Shown: positions 21,731 through 55,670 of the stretch, in pieces
Numbering within the stretch: the stretch's first letter is position 1
Layout: every line of letters begins with the position of its first letter
Origin: Ephemerocybe angulata
Lineage: Eukaryota; Basidiomycota; Agaricomycetes; Agaricales; Psathyrellaceae
Length of the DNA: 64,000 nt
Direction of reading: 5' to 3'
NCBI GenBank assembly: GCA_013368325.1
Contig: JAACJK010000111.1
Span: forward strand, 496,001 to 560,000
Notes under the pieces: generated by a model
The model's input: the letters and a program-made list of their open reading frames with translations, nothing else
Told to the model about the DNA's origin: nothing
Database searches by the model: none
Made by a program: the position numbers and the translations under genes

Positions 21731-23049
21731 ATGTCCCAGCGCGTTTACAACGCCCTTGGGCGAGCCGTGGTATGTCCAGTTAAATAGGGGGTAAGCGGTC
21801 CCTGACGGCAATCTACATTTAATGGTGGATGTAGCAACATGTCTGCTTCTCGGGTTCCTCTATCTCGAAAAGGACTTCAGGATTCTTGGTGAACCAAGGA
21901 GTCTTTCACAAATTCTCTCTGAATACTCTATCAACGCTCCGGAAGACGCATGGAAGAATACAGCCGTTTCGCTCGATGTCAAGTTCTGCCGTTCAACACG
22001 ATGTTCCGCACCGCCGGCGGGCGCCTGTGACGCGCGTCGTCAACAACTTGGATCCAGGATGCCTGAAAATTTCGGACATTGTTGACTTACATGGGCCTCA
22101 CCAACCCAAAGTTACCTTTGGAGCCGCCACGGGAAGAGTTGAATATTTTTCAGGAAACCCATTCCCCCCAGGCTCCAGAGGGTTTTTCTATTACCACAGC
22201 AGGCCAGGCCAAGCTGCATGTGCAGGGGAAATTAGGTTTCGCGTGGTGGACGTTGGTTCTCCATCCGCTTCGGCAGCTGATCTTTTCGCAAGTGGGAGGG
22301 ACTTGCTAGACTACACCGGCTACAGACCTTGGCGCATACATATGACGCAGCTTTACACAGTGCAACGATATGACCCCATCCGGCGGCTTCTTCAGTCCCA
22401 AGGTCTCATTAGTGCAGCTCAAGACCGCGAGGCTGAAAATCAGCTTTCTGGGCTTAGTTGCCACGCTACAGGGCAGTCGACCATCATCGATACCATCTCG
22501 GACACCTTTGTCATCCAGCTACCAACATCGACCATCCGTCTCGCTTTCACCCACGCCGAGGGCTTTTTTCCATCTGTCACTCCAGTGCTACAACACGCGG
22601 TTTGGAGAGGGAGCCATGAAACTGTTGACGCCTCCGATGCGCCTTGGAGAGTGTATACAGGTGAGGTTTATGACGCTTCTCCATACTGGCAACAAGCCGC
22701 CAATCTGCCCATCCTGATTCTTGTTCCCCCAGGATATGCCGTCGTCAGGTTTGAGCTGCAGAGGGCGCAAAGAACGGAAAATTATTTCCAAGTGAAGGAG
22801 GGCGAAGTCGTGCTTGTCCTCCGGATCATCGAGCTTTTGGACCCCGTGGGTCCAGACGGGGTGCCGTTTCGCCTGCCGGAGGGAGGTGACTTCGTTCAGA
22901 CACAAGTACCCGGCCGGTACTGGCGTATGCCTCTGGATAAGGCACGGAAGCTCGGAATCCTTACTCCCTCTTCATTCAAGATCTTGGAAGACCTTTATCT
23001 TCGTGGAAGTCCACCGGTAGAGGCATCAAGCAACAGCAGTGCTCAGTAG
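21731..23049 (+). CDS. Uncharacterised ~420-aa paralogous protein, copy A
   Basis: CDS join 21731-21769 and 21835-23049, 417 residues. The first exon encodes 13 residues (MSQRVYNALGRAV) and exists in all three copies (34077 and 55670). The first ~60 residues are rich in Arg/Lys/Ser/Thr with almost no acidic residues, as in a mitochondrial presequence. The core has GSRGFFYYHSRPGQAACAGE, GEIRFRVVDVGSPSASAAD, DLLDYTGYRPWRIH, WRVYTGEVYDASPY, a hydrophobic LPILILVPPGYAVVRFELQ, and an end TPSSFKILEDLYL. I do not recognise the family. Here the frame lies downstream of calpain C3, and its 3' flank is interrupted by the 23.2-29.0 kb transposon. In-frame indels among copies argue for past selection on the protein. 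Confidence 0.7.
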
Positions 23050-23148
23050 CTCCTGCAACCAGAAAAAGATACTATACCATCCGCCACCAGTATCTTTAGA
23101 GTCTGCGTGAAAGATCTGTCCGAAATCCTTGCCACGGTGCCTCCTCGT

Positions 23149-23155
23149 CCTGGGT
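23149..23155. repeat. Target-site duplication, left (CCTGGGT)
   Basis: Seven bases, CCTGGGT, immediately before the 5.9-kb element, repeated exactly at 29047-29053. Confidence 0.75.
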
Positions 23156-23158
23156 AGC

Positions 23159-23184
23159 GTTGGCGGGAACTGCACGGCAGAAAT
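23159..23184. repeat. Left terminal inverted repeat of the 5.9-kb element
   Basis: 26 bp beginning GTTGGCGGGA and ending CAGAAAT, an exact reverse complement of 29017-29042. Confidence 0.85.
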
Positions 23185-23435
23185 TTCCTAACGCCATCAT
23201 TCCCATCAACTTCTGAGGTATCACCGACCGCCGACCGCCGCAGAGGCGAGAGATTCGTACATGCGCACGGAGGCCAGGAGAGCCCCGACGCAGCCTAAAT
23301 AAAGCCCAAATACGAGATATATTCCTACGTGAGCCATGAGAGACATGCCATGTACATCACGGGTTGGGTGTGAGCGGGCTGGCAGTCGAGAACCGCCGTG
23401 CACTCTGCTATGTACGTCCCAGACTCCCAGCTACA

Positions 23436-24987
23436 TCATATATAGATACGAGGCTCAGCCGGAATATGGTGCAGCATTGCGCTAAATATCTCCCATCCCT
23501 TGAGGGCGATTAACTCTGGACGCCCGATCATGTCGTACGCATGTTCAGCCCGACGACTGAATTCAGCATCCACCCCTGGCCACATCATGACCTCCTCTCG
23601 CGGCTTTTTTATCTCATTGCGTAGTGCGTCAATGACAGCCTGGTCTACCTCAATACCGCAGTCGAAGGCTGGAAGGGCTGGAACGGTGAATGCGTGGCGC
23701 GGAGTCGATCCGGACATGTTTGGCTTCTTGGCCTGTTTCCGTATCTTATGGTTATTCCAATACTCCACAAACCTGTCCAGCACAATCTGCATGATCTGGG
23801 GCCAGAGCCAGTAGAATAGCTTCCTATAATTAGAAATTATCCGTCTAGTCAGCAATGATAACAATGCAGTAAGTGCGATGGCTTACGGGTGGACAGGATT
23901 GTTGGGGTTATAGTTGCCATTTTCGTACCCAGACACGACGACAACCTTCAAGTTGACACCAAAGGTCTTCAGAAACCAGTGCCACAGGCCTTCAATGGGG
24001 GTGTTGTGGACACTTTTTAATTGCAGAAAGGGAGGATAGTGTGTGGAATCGATTGTCGGTGCGTATGCTGACCTGCAGAAGGGAAGTAAATACGATGGCT
24101 TGAAGCATAAACCAAGAGAGACGAAACCATACCTCATCCCCGTCTGGTAAGCGAACATGTAGCCTATCTCAGTTCCCTTGTCTGTGACCATCGTAATTGG
24201 AACCGCTGCGGTATGGCGAGTTAGAATGAGGACTCGCGACCGAAAGGTCAATAAAAAGCCAGCCAAGAACGCACTCATTCGCTTTTGTATTGTATCGAGG
24301 AAAACATGGCCCACTGTGTCAACATCACGGTCATTCGGGACGACGACCAAGTTGAGTAGATACGAGGACCATTGATCCTTAATACCATAAATATTCAAGG
24401 CCACTCCTCCCATCTGTAGCGCTTGCGCATTCATTTTCTCGTGACCGTCCCCGTGGTGCTGGTGATTGGGCCCAAGGCAGGAGAGGCTGGATCGTTGAAT
24501 GCGATTCGCTCCAGGAAAGCGCCTGGCAAGACCTTCCGGTGCATACTGCGCCAGAACGTTGCGCACAAAGTCCCTGGGAATGGAGCAGTGTTAGAGAAAT
24601 CAGAAGTGCCGTGCGCGACGGGGTAATTCAACGTACCTGGGGAGGAGGAAACCTTCATTGGCTAACATGCTCAGAATAGTGCCAGTGCCGTTGGACTGGG
24701 CTATATCCTCGGCGACTTTGTCCAGTACAAGCTGTGTGGCGATGTCTTCCGGCGGAGGCTTGCGAACACTCGGAACATCGAACTGTTTGTTGAGCGAGTA
24801 TAGTTTTCTGTCCCTATTACCCAACGAGGACAATCAACTATAATAGCATAAAGAATACGATTTGAACGCACTTGATTTCCAGGTTGAATTCTGCCTTCAG
24901 TCTCGCGAGACGTTCAGGCGTGGACAGACGCTCCTTGGAATATTGATGGAGGGCCTCACGCAGTACGTCGTCGGGCGGGTCTACCAT
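23436..24987 (-). CDS. Integrase-core (DDE) transposase-like protein
   Basis: Spliced minus-strand gene; clear exons include 24872-24987 (MVDPPDDVLREAL…), one ending near 24813, and the C-terminal exon down to the stop at 23436. It matches the agaric integrase-core family: KLYSLNKQFDVP and RKPPPEDIATQL, LLPRDFVRNVLAQYAPEGL, SDGHEKMNAQAL (here GDGHEKMNAQAL), IYGIKDQWSSYLL with the first Asp, MVTDKGTEIGYMF with the second Asp, SVHNTPIEGLWHW with the Glu, then NPNNPVHP and RFVEYWNNHKIRKQ. All three acidic residues are present. An upstream exon (from ATG 25101) is possible but does not splice in frame cleanly. It is the likely mobiliser of the element bounded by 23156 and 29046. Confidence 0.82.
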
Positions 24988-25560
24988 GACATAGTATATT
25001 GTCAGTCATACAAAGTGCAGTGAATTCCGACAGGGCAACATACACGCTTTGGTTCCATATCCGTTCACGCCAGCCATGTTGTTATTTGTACGTGCCGCCA
25101 TTTCGAATTGTTTAAACCCGGAGAGCGGCAAACCGATGAAGAGGGCTGCGAGGCTATTATGCTGCGATGCTGAGTCAATTTCGACGATCCTCTCGCCTTA
25201 TATACTGCCATAGACTCACCCAAGGCGTAATATTCAATTTTACCTGCTGGCTAACACCGTCGCTTACACTCAGTCGCAGTCTACAAGAAGTACACTTAAC
25301 TGCGATAGCCGTAGTTAAACTTCCAGAAGTGACGGGACTTGGATATTAAATGCGAACACCTATGCAAGAACGTCATAGAGGCACATGTTAGTGGTCACTA
25401 AGCGTACTAGTAATGCTAGAATCAATTGAAGCAACCGAGCGGCGAGAATATACGGAGAAGTCCATTAAAAACAATATAGAAGCACAAATGAAGTCTTGTT
25501 GACAGATCGAGACAGATCGTGTCATTCACCGAAGCGTACGTAGTGACACATCATTCTGAT

Positions 25561-28120
25561 TCATTCGTCCTCGTCAGTTAGCGGAGGCCGAGCATCCCCA
25601 TCTCCATTATCCACTTCCTCCTCCTCCTCTGCCTCCCCCTCATTCTTGCCCTCTGCATCCACATCTTTGGCAGCCCGCTTCTTGGAACTAACTGCAATTG
25701 CAACGAACTCCTTAAACCCGAGGAGTTGGCATATGTGAGAGCAACGGTGTTGTGCCTTAAAGGTTTCAATGCCTTCAGAACCGTGATCGCCAACACCTGA
25801 GTCCCTAATATTGCTGATCTTAGAGGCGAAATATATCGTCGGACGAACTAAATAGACGTACCCTTCCACGGTGTGACTCATGGGATCGAAGAGAATAAGA
25901 GTATCAACCCCACGGACATTCATGCGGGAACCTGTTATTTAATCAGTATCAGGGGTCAATATAACATTTCAACGCAGACCCACGACGCACCTTGTATATC
26001 AGAAAAGACAAATTCCTCTTGGCTAGCCCAGAAGACGTAATGCAAGAAAGCAGAAAGAGTAACACCAATCTTATCAGAACGTCGTGGGTATTCCATCGTG
26101 CCGCAATACTTTGTAACCGACATCGTACGGCGCGGCTCAATAAGCCACACGGCCTCCTCAGAAGGCCCAAGGCCAGAAGCCGAAGACGACATCCCAACTT
26201 CGCATGCGAGGAACGCGGGCGTGACTACAAGATCTAGAATAAATGTGAGTAAGGTCTCCCGGCAAAGTCAAGACAATTAACACGTACTGGATGCGTATTC
26301 TATATTCTTTCTGTCTGCTGAAGCTTTGAAGAGGTCCAAAAACCATTCGAGAGATTTGAGACGAACAAGCTCAAGTTCGAGATAGTATGTATTCTCGTCA
26401 CCAGTCACGATCTCACCCTGCTTCGACACGGTGAAGAACCTTTTTGCCATATGGAGTTTGCCGTCAATGGAGAGCTAAAGCGGACATATAAGGCTTCTCA
26501 GACATTATCAGGTCTCGAGTAGACATATACGTACCTGGTGCACTGCCTTAGTCTTTCCCCGAGCGCAAGACTCCCTTCCGATAGACCCACTGACCGTCTG
26601 AGCGTCATCAGGCCACATGGTTGATACTTCACCCGTATCCTCAGCCATAGCCGTAACGGCCTTTTGCAGAATGACCGACTCGCTCGCAGTGCGTCCTACA
26701 TTCGCAGGGAGCTGGCTGCGCATATACATCGAGGCAGGCTGCCCTGTCTCCCGATTTCAAAATGTCAGAAAAAGTACAAGATCGAAGATGGTTAATAGAC
26801 GCACCTAGTCCCAATGCTGCTCTTCGCTTCTGGGGTACCTCGGAGACGCCTCCTTGGGTGTTACTGCGCTTCCGACCAGCTTGAGCTTCCTGAGCTTCCG
26901 CCTCAGGCGCACCCTCCTGCGCCTCTGCCGCGGTAATTTCGGCTTCTTCCTCAACAGCCGCACGACGTGAGAGATACTGTCGTGATTACAGGTAAACTGA
27001 GCAAAGAAATCAATGGGAAGTGAGGTAAGGACGTACTGCCACTTTGTCGATGAAAAGCTCCATGTACATTCTAAACTGAGGTTTGGCCCCAGAAGCGCGA
27101 CCTTTGGGCTCACTAGCTCCGTAGAATGTACCCATATCGCCCGTCATATATTTCTCGTATATTTCACCGATAGTACCGTTCTCATACTCCGGGGAAATAA
27201 CCTTATTTCCAGCAAAGCGCATCTGGACTTCGTCTCTTTTTAATGAGGGGCTGGTCAGAAAGGCCATCACGTCGTTGCTGGTCGGCGCCCGACCATTTCG
27301 GTAGAAATGACTCACTTAACTAGCTCCATCGGTTCAGTCCTCGTCCAATTAGCATTAACCGTTGCGAGATGCTCGTCGATGACCTCTATGCATCCCAAGA
27401 TAATGTATTAGGAGGTGCCGGTTCAAGTCAGAGAGTCGAGACATAGACGTACCAGAAAGGTATGACTCCTTCGGCCACAACCTCCCAGACAGCCCAAGCC
27501 CCATGTCGGTGCTCTTGCCGTCCTTCTTACTCGACGTCATGATGCGGCACTCCACGGTAATAAAGATATCCTCGCTACCAGCACTGCCAGGAGGTGGGAT
27601 CGAAGCAAGGGGCCCTCCAGGAGCGAATGCAGGAGCTGGATTCTTGGTAAGACGAGCGTTTAATGCATGGCCCCGTGCCTGGCGGGCAACGTCGAGGGCG
27701 TGCTGGACACGGGCTTTGTCTGAACATAAAGAATGAAATGAGGAACACTGCAGTCGAAAAGGTGATGGAGGACTGTACCTTGGGCAGCCCCGTTTGGCTC
27801 TGGGTTGCGCTGTTGAGGGCCGGGTGGAGGCATTTTGGCAGTGTCGCATGCACCGCAGATCGTGCGCTCAGATTTCCAGTTCTTGTAGGCTCGACCACAA
27901 GACTCGCATTGGCGCACATTCTACCGTGATATGTCAGAGACCCAGGAATCTTGAGAAAATCAGCTAGAGTATCACGTACCATCCACGCGTCGTACTCGGG
28001 ACTTCCTGGCTCAAGTGTTGCAAGCTTCGAGCATAACATACAAAGTCCAGGTAACCCTTTCATTACAAAAAGCTCTCCACAGCCTTCTCCGTCGTCTGTC
28101 GTGCAGATATTGGCGTCCAT
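25561..28120 (-). CDS. Alpha-type (MHCK/eEF2K-like) protein kinase, transposon cargo
   Basis: Multi-exon minus-strand gene; the start ATG is 28120 (MDANICTTDDGEGCGELF). The N-terminal part has paired Cys motifs (LCMLCSKL, CESCGRAY, ICGACD), probably zinc-binding. The middle is variable. The C-terminal third is an alpha-kinase domain: AVWLIEPRRT, VTKYCGTMEYP, FLHYVFWASQEEFVFSDIQG, LILFDPMSHT, the Gly-rich GVGDHGSEGI, and a final Cys/His site QHRCSHICQLLGF. It should phosphorylate Ser/Thr in proteins; the substrate is unknown. The tail is Glu/Asp-rich. Alpha-kinases are expanded in mushrooms; this copy lies wholly inside the element with the integrase gene. Exact internal exon borders were not all resolved. 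Confidence 0.8.
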
Positions 28121-29016
28121 GGAGTTCAAATTCAAGCGAAGTAGCAAAGTCGGATACGGGGAGTACTAAGCAGGGATCTCTACTGAGTGACAAGGCTCTA
28201 GTTTATTTCTCTCGCTTATATAGGGTTCAAAAACATAATGCGACTAATCACTATACACCACCCAGGCTACTAGTTGAGGAACGGCAAAGTTGTGAAGCGA
28301 GAAAGGAAGACATACATGTGTTGCTGTACCCGTAAGATAATCGCAGTGCACTGTCATTTGGAAAGGTTCTCGAAGGGTCATTATTGCACATAGCGGTTAG
28401 ACGGTAAGAGTTCCACGTACTGTCAATGCATTGTGGTGCATGCCCCGCCAGTTCTCCTCTGCGAACGATCCACCAGCCACAAGGAACGAGGTATGTTGCG
28501 AAGCTCACTTTCTAACAATTACAAGAGGCGGTGGACAGATTGTCATGAGCGTAAAACAGACTGCATGATCACGGACTCACTTCCGCACAAGTTCTGAGTC
28601 GCAGAAGGTAAGAAGAAGAGAAGACGCAGGGTTATTGTAGTCATAAACAGCGCGCGCCAACCCTTGCCTGTTATGAGAACAAAGCCAGAACAAATGGGGA
28701 CACCTCCATCGCTGCCTCGGACCGGCCTTCGAGACTCCTGGCGTCAATACTTACCCTCAAATCCTGGGCGTCCTCATTACATCCTGCCTTGTACACACCT
28801 CGCGGCCCATTACTAGTATCAGGGGACTTCGATCTCAATGTGGTAGAGACTCTGATTCATATTACAACCCTCAGCGTGTCTATTGGGGTGGGTATTTACT
28901 CTATAAGCCATGCCATACTCGTACTCCGGGTCTCCCAAGGAGGCAGGGTCGTGCTGCTGACTCGATGTTTGTGCGGTCAGTTGGCGTAACTGATGGCGGA
29001 CGCTCGCGCATCAAAG
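28121..29016. other. Right non-coding end of the 5.9-kb element
   Basis: No gene is supported. It would contain the kinase promoter and the sequence next to the right terminal repeat. Confidence 0.4.
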
Positions 29017-29042
29017 ATTTCTGCCGTGCAGTTCCCGCCAAC
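29017..29042. repeat. Right terminal inverted repeat of the 5.9-kb element
   Basis: 26 bp, exact reverse complement of 23159-23184; followed by CTTA and the duplicated CCTGGGT at 29047-29053. Confidence 0.85.
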
Positions 29043-29046
29043 CTTA

Positions 29047-29340
29047 CCTGGGTTTGTTCCCCAGTTGCCCAGAAGAATACGGCTCCAACACGCATTCTAC
29101 AGCTTACCATCATCACAGCTTCCTCCTTAAATTTATCAGCAAAGGTGTCGAACTTTGCCTTTAATCTGGGCTCTTGTCGAGCAGAACGTCACTACATGAT
29201 AGGGGAGACTGGCGGGGCGGACTCAAGGCGAGCGGGCTTTGCAGTATGTAGCATTGACAGTTGTCATTTCAAATTCACTGAGATAATACATCGCCCCGTC
29301 GCTTGCTGAGATATAACCCCCCACTGTGTCCCCTTCATAC
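29047..29340. repeat. Displaced 3' flank of paralogue copy A
   Basis: This segment aligns, in the same direction, with 35520-35830 downstream of copy B. Shared runs include AGAAGAATA, TTACAGCTTA, ACTGGCGGGGCGGA and CCCCTTCATAC. It was separated from copy A by the transposon insertion. Confidence 0.7.
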
Positions 29341-34076: not shown

Positions 34077-35411
34077 ATGTTCCAGCGCGTTCACAATGCC
34101 CTCGGGCGAGTGGCGGTAAGTCCAGTTAAATAGGGGGTCACAATACTTGGGAAGCGGTCTCCTGACGGCAATTTACATTTGCGGTGGATGCAGCAACGTG
34201 TCTGCTTCTCGGGTTCCTCTATCTCGAAAAGGACTTCAGGATTCTTGGTGAACCAAGGAATCTTTCACAAGTTCTCTCTTAATACTCTATCAATGCCCCG
34301 GAAGACGCATGGAAGAATACAGCCGTTTCGCCTGATGTCAAGCTCTGGTGTTCAACACGATGTTCCGCGCCGCTGGCGGGCACCAGTGACGCGCGTCATC
34401 AACAACCTGGATCCAGGATGCCTGAAAACTTCGGACATTGTTGACTTATATGGGCCTCTCGAACCCAGAGTTACCTTTGGAGTCGCCACAGGAAGGCTTC
34501 ATTATACTTATAGAACACCATTCCCCCAAGGCTCCAGAGGGTTTCTCTACTACCGCAGCAGGCCAGGTCAGGCTGCATGCGCAGGGGAAATTAGGTTTCG
34601 CGTGGTGGACGTTGGTTCTCCATCCGCTTCGGCAGCTGATCTTTTCGCAAGTGGGAGGGACTTGCTAGACTACACCGGCTACAGACCTTGGCGCATACAT
34701 CTGACGCAGCTTTACACAGTGCAACGATATGACCCCATCCGCCGGCTTCTTCAATCCCAGGGTCTCATTAGTGCAGCTCAAGAACGCGAGGCTGAAAACC
34801 AGCTTTCGGGGGTTTCATTGGCGCAACGCCCGGGGCGGTCGACCATCATCGATACCATCTCGGACACCTTTGTCATCCGGCTACCGACATCGACCATCCA
34901 TCTCGCTTTCACCCACGCCGAGGGCTTTTTTCCATCTGTCTCTCCAGGGCTACGAAGCGTGGGTTGGAGAGGGAGCCATGAAACTGTCGACGCCTCCGAT
35001 GCGCCTTGGAGAGTGTATACAGGTGAGGTTTATGACGCTCCTCCATACTGCCAACAAGCCGCCAATTTGCCCATCCTGATTCTCGTTCCCCCAGGATATG
35101 CCGTCGTCAGGTTTGAACTGCAGAGGGCCCAGAGAACGGAAAATTATTGCAACGTGAAGGAGGGCGAAGTCGTGCTTGTCCTCCGGATCCTCGAGCTTTT
35201 GGATCCGCTGGGTCCAGATGGGGTGCCGTTTCGCCTGCCGGAGGGGGGCGACCTCGCTCAGACTCAAGTATCCCACCGGTCCTGGCGTATGCCTCTGGAT
35301 AGGGCACGGAAACTCGGAATCATTACGCCCTCGTCATTCAAGATTTTGGAGGACCTGTATCTCCGCGAAAGGGCACCAGTAGAAGCATCAAGCACTAGCA
35401 ATGCTCAGTAG
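34077..35411 (+). CDS. Uncharacterised ~420-aa paralogous protein, copy B
   Basis: CDS join 34077-34115 and 34194-35411, 418 residues. The first exon encodes MFQRVHNALGRVA; the junction is in phase 0, as in copy A. The same core blocks are present (FLYYRSRPGQAACAGE, VVDVGSPSASAAD, DLLDYTGYRPWRIH, TPSSFKILEDLYL). It is clearly closer to copy A than to copy C in the second half. It lies directly after calpain C4, as copy A lies after C3. The frame is intact. There are no recognisable enzyme motifs. Confidence 0.7.
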
Positions 35412-35840
35412 CTCTTGCAATGCAGAAACACATATCATAACATCCGACACCAGTATCTTAAGAGCCTGCGCGAAACGCGCGAAATCCTTGCCGAAGTGCC
35501 TCCTGTCCTTCTCTTCGGTTTGCCCCCCACTTGCTCGGAAGAATAGGGCTGGTACACGACTCTTACAGCTTAAGGTTGCCCTCTATCACCCCGGCTTCCT
35601 CTTTGAGTCTCTATGCAAAGGGGTCGGGACTCGGAATCACTCCAACCTGGGTTCCCGTAGACCAGACCGTCACCATAATATGATAGAGGACACTGGCGGG
35701 GCGGAAGTCGAGGTGAATGGGCTTGCAGCGGCGGTTGTCATTCCATACTCACTGAGGCGTCGCTTGTTTGAGATCTGTCCCCCCTTCTGTTCCCCTTCAT
35801 ACCAAAATCGACCCGGCGCTTCAATGGTTTGGACCTTATT
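35412..35840. repeat. 3' flank of copy B, uninterrupted
   Basis: About 430 bp that matches the 3' flank of copy A in two pieces (23050-23155 and 29047-29340) and, over ~150 bp, the flank of copy C (about 54323-54170 reversed). It marks the empty site of the 5.9-kb insertion. No gene is seen. Confidence 0.7.
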
Positions 35841-53924: not shown

Positions 53925-54323
53925 AGATGGGATCGTGGACCACAACAGCAGCCGCGCAAGGTCGGAATGGGCTGCCAAGTTCTGGAAGTATGAAACCCCA
54001 TATTGCCAGTTCATGAACGGTCTTGTATACTCAGTTTGTACAATGTATATGGTGTCTTACTGCACGAATTTACATTTGGTGGTCCCCAATTCCACTTCTT
54101 GCAACCGCCACCAATAGGACATCGCTTCATGGTTAGTTTTCGACTATTCTAATCGAGCTTGCGTTTCGGTACATACCCTGTAAGCCGCGTGACGGTGGAT
54201 GGTTCGGGCAAGTGGGAAACCAACCCAAAGCAAGGAAGTTCTGAGGCAAGGTATTCGGTTTTCCCGCACACTCTTAAAATACTGGTGGTGGATGCTATAA
54301 TGTCTTTGTCTGTATGGGAAGAG

Positions 54324-55670
54324 CTACTGAGCACTACTCGTGCTTGATGCTTCTATTGGTGGACTTTCACGAAGATACAGGTCCTCCAAGGTCTTGAATG
54401 ACGAGGGCGTAATGATTCCGAGTTTCCGTGCCCTATCCAGAGGCATACGCCAGTACTGGCCGGGTACTTGTGCCTGAACGAAGTCGCCTCCCTCCGGCAG
54501 GCAAAACGGCGCCCCGTCTGGATCCAGCGGATCCAAAAGCTCGAGGATCCGGAGGACAAGTACGACTTCGCCCATCTTCACTTTGAAATAATTTTCCGTT
54601 CTCAGCACCCTCTGCAGCTCAAACCTGACGACGGCATGTCCTAAGAGAACGAGAATCAGGACTCGGAGCCTTGGGCAGGTTGGGCAACACGGAAAACCTT
54701 CAAAGACCTCACCTTCATACACTCTCCAAGACGCATCGGAGGGATCAACAGTGTCAGGTTCATGTCTCCCTCTCCAAAACACTTTAAACATCGTTGGAGT
54801 GGATGGAATAAAGCCCTCGTTGTGGATGAAAGCGAGATTGAGGGTAACTGCCGGTAGCTGGATGACAAAGGTATCCGAGATGCGATCGATGATGGTCGAC
54901 CGCCCCGGGCGTTGCGCCAATGAAACCCCGGAAAGCTGGTTTTCAGCCTCGCGGTCTTGAGCTGCACTAATGAGTCCTTGGGATAGAAGAAGTCGGCGGA
55001 TGGGGTCATATCGTTGCGCTGTGTAAAGCTGCGTCAGATGTATGCGCCAAGGTCTGTAGCCGGTGTAGTCTAGCAAGTCCCTCCCACTTGCGAAAAGATC
55101 AGCTGCCGAAGGGGATGGAGAACCAACGTCCACCACGCGAAACCTAATTTCCCCTGCGCATGCAGCTTGGCCTGGCCTGCTGTGGTAGTAGAAAAACCCT
55201 CTGGAGCCTGGGGGGAATGGGTTTTTTGAAAAATATGTAAGTCTTCCCGTGGCGACTCCAAAGGTAACTCTGGGTTCGTTAAGACCGCTCAAGTCGACAA
55301 TGTCCGAAATTTTCAGGCATCGTGGATCCAAGTTGTTGAGGACGCGCGTCACTGGCGCCCGCCAGCGGCGCGGAACCGTGACATCGTGTTGAAGAGCAGA
55401 ACTTGACATCGGGCGAAATGGTTGGATTGTTCCACGCGTCTTCCGGGGCGTTGATATAGTATTCAGTGAGCAACTGTGAAAGGTTCCTTGGTTCACCAAG
55501 AATCCTGGGGTCCTTTTCGGGGTAGAGGAACCTGAGAACCGGACATGTTGCTACATTCGCCATAAAAAATGTGGATCGCCGTCAGGAGACCTCTTTCCAA
55601 GTATTGTGCCTCCCTATTTAACTGGACATACCACGGCTCGCCTAAGAGCGCTATAAGCGCGCGGAGACAT
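54324..55670 (-). CDS. Uncharacterised ~420-aa paralogous protein, copy C
   Basis: CDS complement of 55632-55670 and 54324-55550, 421 residues. First exon MSPRAYSALRRAV; same phase-0 junction as copies A and B. Against those it has a 6-nt in-frame insertion (HDVTVPRR) and more changes around WRGRHEPDTVDPSD and FEGFPCCPTCPRL, but the reading frame is kept. It lies ~19 kb from copy B, in opposite orientation, and again carries the small divergent frame on its upstream side. The 3' flank (about 54323-54170) still aligns with that of copy B. Confidence 0.7.

Follow-up and report, generated by a model that had tools for sequence, protein, structure and literature searches.

The stretch of DNA analyzed here (the window) was 64,000 nucleotides long and came from the inky-cap mushroom Ephemerocybe angulata, a relative of the model mushroom Coprinopsis. 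It corresponded to C18:496001–560000 of a 58.7-Mb assembly; C18, C67, C105 and similar numbers denote contigs of this assembly, and positions without a contig are those of the window. Two genes, for a transposase and an alpha-kinase, lay 460 bp apart between a pair of inverted repeats. Both were on the minus strand, in agreement with an earlier note made from the letters alone. The features of the locus were as follows.

23155..29046: complete DNA transposon, IS3EU-like, 5,892 bp, with 30-bp inverted ends, a 6-bp duplication and a paralogous empty site
23149..23154: left target-site duplication, CCTGGG
29047..29052: right target-site duplication, CCTGGG
23155..23184, plus strand: left terminal inverted repeat, TAGC + 26 bp
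29017..29046, minus strand: right terminal inverted repeat, TAAG + 26 bp (minus-strand reading)
23436..25101, minus strand: transposase, 429 aa, 7 exons, rva_4 integrase core, D157/D223/E266 (from the gene model, PF24764 and predicted structure)
25101-25044, 24980-24872, 24813-24637, 24573-24275, 24205-24133, 24072-23887, 23823-23436, minus strand: transposase exons
25561..28120, minus strand: alpha-kinase, 647 aa, 11 exons, with an N-terminal Cys cluster, a possible ubiquitin-like domain and a C-terminal kinase domain
28120-27980, 27920-27779, 27719-27453, 27385-27316, 27235-27037, 26976-26805, 26743-26535, 26474-26288, 26233-25991, 25931-25862, 25804-25561, minus strand: alpha-kinase exons
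34862..35807, plus strand: paralogue of both flanks, an empty site unbroken at the insertion point, with 293 right-flank bases aligned
54206..54876, minus strand: second paralogue, left flank and only 18 right-flank bases (weak empty site)

The inverted repeats had been described as perfect over 26 bp, and all 26 bases were identical; arms of 32 nt were 94% identical. A 23-base core of the ends gave no match at up to three mismatches in 100 shuffles of the window. At the same tolerance, the 26-bp end was found at 22 sites in the assembly versus none for a backwards-read control, which removed the possibility, raised earlier as a refutation, that no second copy of the ends existed. None of 60 shuffles gave a pair of TA ends that had a 6- or 7-bp duplication and agreed at 20 of 22 end bases.

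The real ends were longer, 30 bp. We set the borders of the element at 23155 and 29046 because termini of the TAAG/TAGC type flanked the 26-bp match in all 12 two-ended copies found in the genome (described below). A 7-bp direct repeat, CCTGGGT, was literally present as previously reported, but the target duplication is the 6-bp CCTGGG, because the seventh base, T, is the first base of the left end and matches a T in the flank by chance.

When the element was taken out and one CCTGGG was kept, the joined flanks aligned through the junction to 34862–35807, with 81% identity and 293 bases beyond the junction. They also aligned to 54876–54206 (about 81%), with just 18 bases beyond the junction. 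The earlier note had counted both paralogues as contiguous flanks; the former upheld this, but the latter is weak evidence for an empty site. Together, the ends, the duplication and the empty-site paralogue supported the proposal that 23155–29046 is a complete terminal inverted repeat (TIR) transposon with both genes inside.

The sequence to the left of the element was itself part of a multicopy family (22500–23154, 34862–35509 and 54260–54876). The genome had 31 matches to it, the flank itself counted, and many lay on C125.

The transposase model was open and identical to the database protein D9611_008101. The spliced protein matched PF24764 (rva_4) with an E value of 1.6e-8. The three acidic residues expected of an integrase core, D157, D223 and E266, were each conserved in at least 90% of 29 relatives. 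The predicted structure (mean pLDDT 89.8) matched the cores of integrase, IstA and TnsB. Only a single cysteine was seen by eye before D157, so that an upstream HHCC zinc motif was absent.

The kinase model was also open. In its final form it reproduced D9611_008102 exactly, as expected from the fitting of its last exon borders to this protein. The match to the alpha-kinase family PF02816 (E 3.7e-20) was scored with an earlier model of 671 aa, in which one intron was kept and one junction was wrong. D9611_008102 was used for residue conservation, for the protein-database profile search and for the motif alignment. K411 was invariant in 10 relatives, and D541, Q543, H586, C588 and C592 were kept in at least 90% of them; the catalytic and zinc positions were thus conserved at a mean column identity of 36%. 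The DIQG and HxCN..C motifs aligned to those of myosin heavy chain kinase A (MHCK-A). By its domain and motifs, the protein is an alpha-kinase of PF02816, as claimed earlier, with catalytic and zinc motifs, and the kinase fold is retained.

A search of the PDB with the single kinase sequence gave no match at E 0.001; a profile search gave 11 distinct sequences, of which 10 were below 1e-6. In the protein database, a search from the single kinase gave 10 proteins, and a profile of 10 kinases gave three among the 7,994 candidates scored. Both searches from a single sequence used the 671-aa model.

The ends of the element were also carried by short relatives. Twelve copies with two ends were found, the window element and 11 copies of 633–780 bp; some partner ends of the latter were detected only at four to six mismatches. 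One terminus was TAAG in all 12, and the other was TAGC (nine copies) or TATC (three). The duplications next to the TA ends were exactly 6 bp in six copies and exactly 7 bp in five. The remaining copy (C149:272519) had no exact adjoining duplication; ATATAC matched one base off. The short copies fell into three sequence groups, with the same order of the TAAG and TAGC sides as in the long element, and shared with it the terminal 23–34 bases only.

Two pairs of short copies were 100% identical: C139:617285–618019 and C149:272515–273249 over 735 bp, and C149:15697–16476 and C155:75072–75851 over 780 bp. The 1,400-bp flanks of both pairs had no similarity at E 1e-3. This indicated recent movement of these ends. 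A search for inverted end pairs 3–10 kb apart, as suggested in the earlier note, found the ends to recur, but such spacing was present only in the window copy. Since no other copy had ends this far apart, the window transposase would be the likely driver of the short copies. Four ends without partners were found in the flanks examined (C98:63536, C98:618397, C98:616169 and C18:186979).

The distribution of the two genes in the genome was then compared. Pfam detected six alpha-kinase loci, and five of them (on C18, C67, C107, C120 and C105) had a match to the window transposase no more than 10 kb away. About 0.02 such pairs would be expected by chance from six and eight loci in 58.7 Mb, by our own estimate. 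The sixth locus (C87:132534–132965), with no such transposase nearby, was weakly related, and is a candidate host kinase.

Conversely, relatives of the window transposase were found at eight places. With kinase relatives as queries, which added kinase remnants on C218 and C147, seven of these had a kinase match nearby. The eight places leave out C16 and C47 (28–29% identity, also in the PF24764 list); with both included, the figure was seven of 10. The unbiased figure for the pairing is the five of six above; seven of eight kinase loci would mix in C218 and C147, which were found by looking beside the transposase.

As a control, 18 distinct places matching PF24764 were examined. None had a Pfam kinase locus within 10 kb, and the nearest on the same contig (C18:648147) was about 126 kb away. 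With Pfam kinase loci alone, the contrast was five of eight relative places versus 0 of 18 control places. None of 25 loci cut for PF24764 places, with 1.5 kb on each side, matched the kinase relatives. The genome search with PF24764 failed to list the window transposase itself, in spite of the E value of its spliced protein. Counts from this search are lower bounds because short exons hide transposase genes.

The recurrence of the kinase beside relatives of the transposase suggested that it behaves like a standard second gene and not an accidental passenger. The earlier note had called it cargo, which probably undersells it. The orientation of the two genes varied. They were co-oriented in the window, head-to-head on C67, C107, C120, C105 and C218, and tail-to-tail on C147.

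To find borders of the relatives, five cases were scanned for TA ends with duplications, which gave two perfect results and three nulls. The element at C105:418624–430528 had 38 identical end bases and the duplication GCCGTG; the element at C218:102264–104280 had 31 and CTCCCTC. Each beat all 100 shuffles. The ends of both started with TACGG. TA was demanded by the scan, but the identical stretch began exactly there.

On C105, other DNA of about 6 kb (C105:419594–425641), probably a nested insertion, interrupted the transposase. With the nearer transposase piece alone, no ends above shuffles were found. The C105 end had no match elsewhere in the assembly at up to three mismatches; the two matches obtained were its own.

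The C218 end, on the other hand, was found exactly at C67:71763, C216:237645 and C47:1061633, and with three mismatches at C120:287079 and C124:97306. The sites at C47:1061633, C120:287079 and C124:97306 were further single ends of this C218/C67 family. Between C218 and C67, DNA identity was 87% over the kinase side and 96% over the transposase side, with an internal deletion between the two. The C218 element is a relative of that on C67 and has lost internal sequence. Kinase exons at 87% identity inside related elements indicated that they were multiplied by transposition in this genome. This supported, within this genome, the suggested route for the expansion of alpha-kinases.

A different end pair had been considered on C67 (TATGG../TACGC.., with CCATTG). 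It was reached by 7% of shuffles, and by 0 of 100 in a narrower scan. We rejected it because the end at C67:71763 is identical to that of C218.

The pairing was also observed in other species. Adjacent gene numbers were found for kinase and transposase in Candolleomyces efflorescens (MD484_g8243/g8242) and C. eurysporus (H1R20_g1195/g1196). In C. aberdarensis, one gene model (EST38_g9157) fused the two, in the order found in the window. As weaker evidence, both proteins were on contigs of equal size in Lentinula detonsa (143,133) and Laccaria bicolor (1,105,879).

The element was classified by comparison with the published marks of integrase-core transposons. The earlier note knew of no defined element with ends and target duplication for this family, but IS3EU has been in Repbase since 2013, and 17 autonomous IS3EU transposases were there as of May 2022 (PMC10045372). 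According to the available text of that paper, IS3EU always has TA..TA ends and usually 6-bp duplications. The duplications are 4 bp in Ginger1, 4 or 5 bp in Ginger2, and about 4, 15 or 25 bp in IS481EU, which has TNT..AYA or TGT..ACA ends. In our system, TA was present at both outer ends in 12 of 12 copies and in C105 and C218. The duplications were 6 bp in six and 7 bp in five of the 12 copies, 6 bp in C105 and 7 bp in C218, unlike the sizes of Ginger or IS481EU. The core was a DDD/E integrase core with no upstream HHCC. The window element thus fits the IS3EU group by these printed marks (ends, duplication and integrase core).

A closer group is formed by the TET+ IS3EU families of rusts (Pucciniales) and Tuber indicum, for which Kojima (2025) stated in two sentences that they carry a transposase and an alpha-kinase (PMC12730594, as far as its text is available). 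They resemble the window element in their TA..TA ends, in inverted repeats that measure about 30 bp or longer, in 6-bp duplications and in the presence of both genes. In the rust elements, however, a TET/JBP gene lies between oppositely oriented genes, and the ends are TAYGG..CCRTA. The window element had no TET/JBP gene between its genes, which are co-oriented, and its ends read TAAGG and TAGCG. The relatives were closer in this respect, in that opposite orientation was found at C67, C107, C120, C105, C218 and C147, and C105 and C218 started with TACGG. These six pairs and two starts tie the mushroom and rust elements together. Tet_JBP gave at least 30 matches in the genome (25 of the 30 listed were above the Pfam cut-off), and among those listed none was within 200 kb of a kinase locus; the nearest, on C18, was more than 200 kb away.

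The best overall explanation, which we consider very probable, is that the locus is an IS3EU-type cut-and-paste transposon with the kinase as its standard second gene, and that both genes were multiplied together by transposition. The transposase, with a helical N-terminal part and an RNase-H-fold DDE core, would bind the 30-bp ends, excise the element and attach it to the target strands at points separated by 6 to 7 bases. Such cut-and-paste joining is suggested by the ends, the duplications and the DDE core. The same enzyme may also mobilize the 633–780-bp copies in trans. The alpha-kinase would be a regular second gene of the lineage and not a chance passenger.

The conserved motifs and the recurrent pairing point to a use of the kinase by the element. 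By analogy with TET/JBP, for which Kojima proposed anti-silencing in the sister elements (PMC12730594, in its available part), the kinase may phosphorylate proteins for the benefit of the element, either in the transposase complex or among host silencing and repair factors; we regard the chances for and against this as about even. A broader form is more tentative, and we lean slightly against it: one IS3EU lineage of mushrooms would be a two-gene machine in which the kinase is a transposition or anti-silencing factor, its Cys cluster and ubiquitin-like domain would target it to chromatin or the transposase complex, and most alpha-kinase genes in such genomes would belong to transposons and not to host signalling.

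Several observations weigh against the best explanation. The assembly yielded a single long copy with these ends, and DNA searches of the genome with each gene region gave no second copy among the best candidates scored; the mobility of the 5.9-kb form therefore rests on the duplication and on paralogues that are 81% identical and non-allelic. Because the short copies share just the terminal 23–34 bases, their movement in trans by this transposase can only be inferred. In the scan for TA ends with duplications, no ends above shuffles were found at C107, C120 and C147. C67 and C216 gave one end each, with no right end found at C67, and C216 had an end and a transposase piece with no kinase within 1.5 kb on each side. 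A second E. angulata kinase, P0002, was 86–94% identical to that of the window (by three measures), and had no close transposase among the matches listed; apart from D9611_008101 itself, E. angulata was represented among these by two transposases, at 57% and 54%. Finally, the distances of kinase and transposase were uncorrelated over five pairs (Spearman 0.21; 35 of 120 permutations were as good), so that lasting co-inheritance is unsupported by these five pairs.

This lack of correlation would fit a kinase that is captured host cargo of no use to the element. The kinase also diverged faster, with 35–62% identity versus 57–76% for the transposase over the same 10 species pairs, and gene order and orientation varied among loci, as described. 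We nevertheless consider cargo rather unlikely. Five of the six kinase loci detected by Pfam have a relative of this transposase next to them, the pairing recurs by adjacent gene numbers in another genus (Candolleomyces), the catalytic and zinc positions have been kept despite the low column identity, and the TET+ IS3EU elements of rusts have the kinase too (PMC12730594, available part). P0002 would suit a kinase that now serves the host, or one that aids persistence of the element as a toxin or drive gene, with the transposase as the vehicle; a comparison of wheat-rust genomes also has PF02816 in a table of domains (PMC5295586, in the part available). We judge this improbable, in that C87, the lone Pfam locus with no relative of this transposase nearby, is not closely related to the window kinase.

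The locus might also represent two ordinary host genes caught between two independently inserted short copies, since the ends are common alone in short copies and four of them lack partners. This is extremely improbable: a single 6-bp duplication spans the whole 5.9 kb between correctly oriented TAGC and TAAG ends, the paralogue is contiguous across the site, and C105 and C218 are bounded likewise. Assignment to another integrase-core superfamily (Ginger1, Ginger2 or IS481EU) or to one of its own would find room in the 7-bp duplications of five of the 12 copies, in the difference of the TAAG/TAGC ends from the TAYGG of the rust elements (PMC12730594, available part), and in a placement made by printed marks. 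It too seems quite improbable, because TA..TA ends with 6-bp duplications are the printed marks of IS3EU, from which the other three differ (PMC10045372, available text), and the relatives in the same genome start with TACGG.

The presence of an alpha-kinase in IS3EU elements was known before, as was an element type with such ends and duplications. What is new is a mushroom element that lacks TET, has defined ends and short relatives, and carries its two genes in the same orientation. To our knowledge, it would be unusual for a lineage of DNA transposons to have a protein kinase as its regular second gene. In the literature searched, which left most subscription journals outside, the link of alpha-kinase and IS3EU was found solely in PMC12730594, whose available text deals neither with short copies or kinase elements lacking TET nor with this pairing in mushrooms or the role of the kinase. 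What had been noted briefly for TET+ elements, chiefly those of rusts, is in this way extended to a defined TET-free mushroom element with relatives in one genome. This opens two questions to direct test. One is whether an alpha-kinase encoded by a transposon has a part in transposition or counteracts silencing; the other is whether the expanded alpha-kinase sets of basidiomycetes are really counts of transposon genes.

Two other systems were compared. The IS3EU/GingerRoot elements share the DDE integrase core, the TA..TA ends and the usual 6-bp duplications, but the word kinase is absent from the main text of that paper as available (PMC10045372), and those duplications found in this genome measure 6 or 7 bp. 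Styx of Zymoseptoria is IS3EU-related, with 36-bp inverted repeats, 6-bp duplications and genes beyond the transposase; these are GATA, CCHC and DUF3577, however, and no alpha-kinase is noted in the available part of the report (PMC10853768). On the kinase side, the closest systems included alpha-kinases with solved structures, namely TRPM7 (ChaK), eEF2K, MHCK-A and an Entamoeba alpha-kinase.

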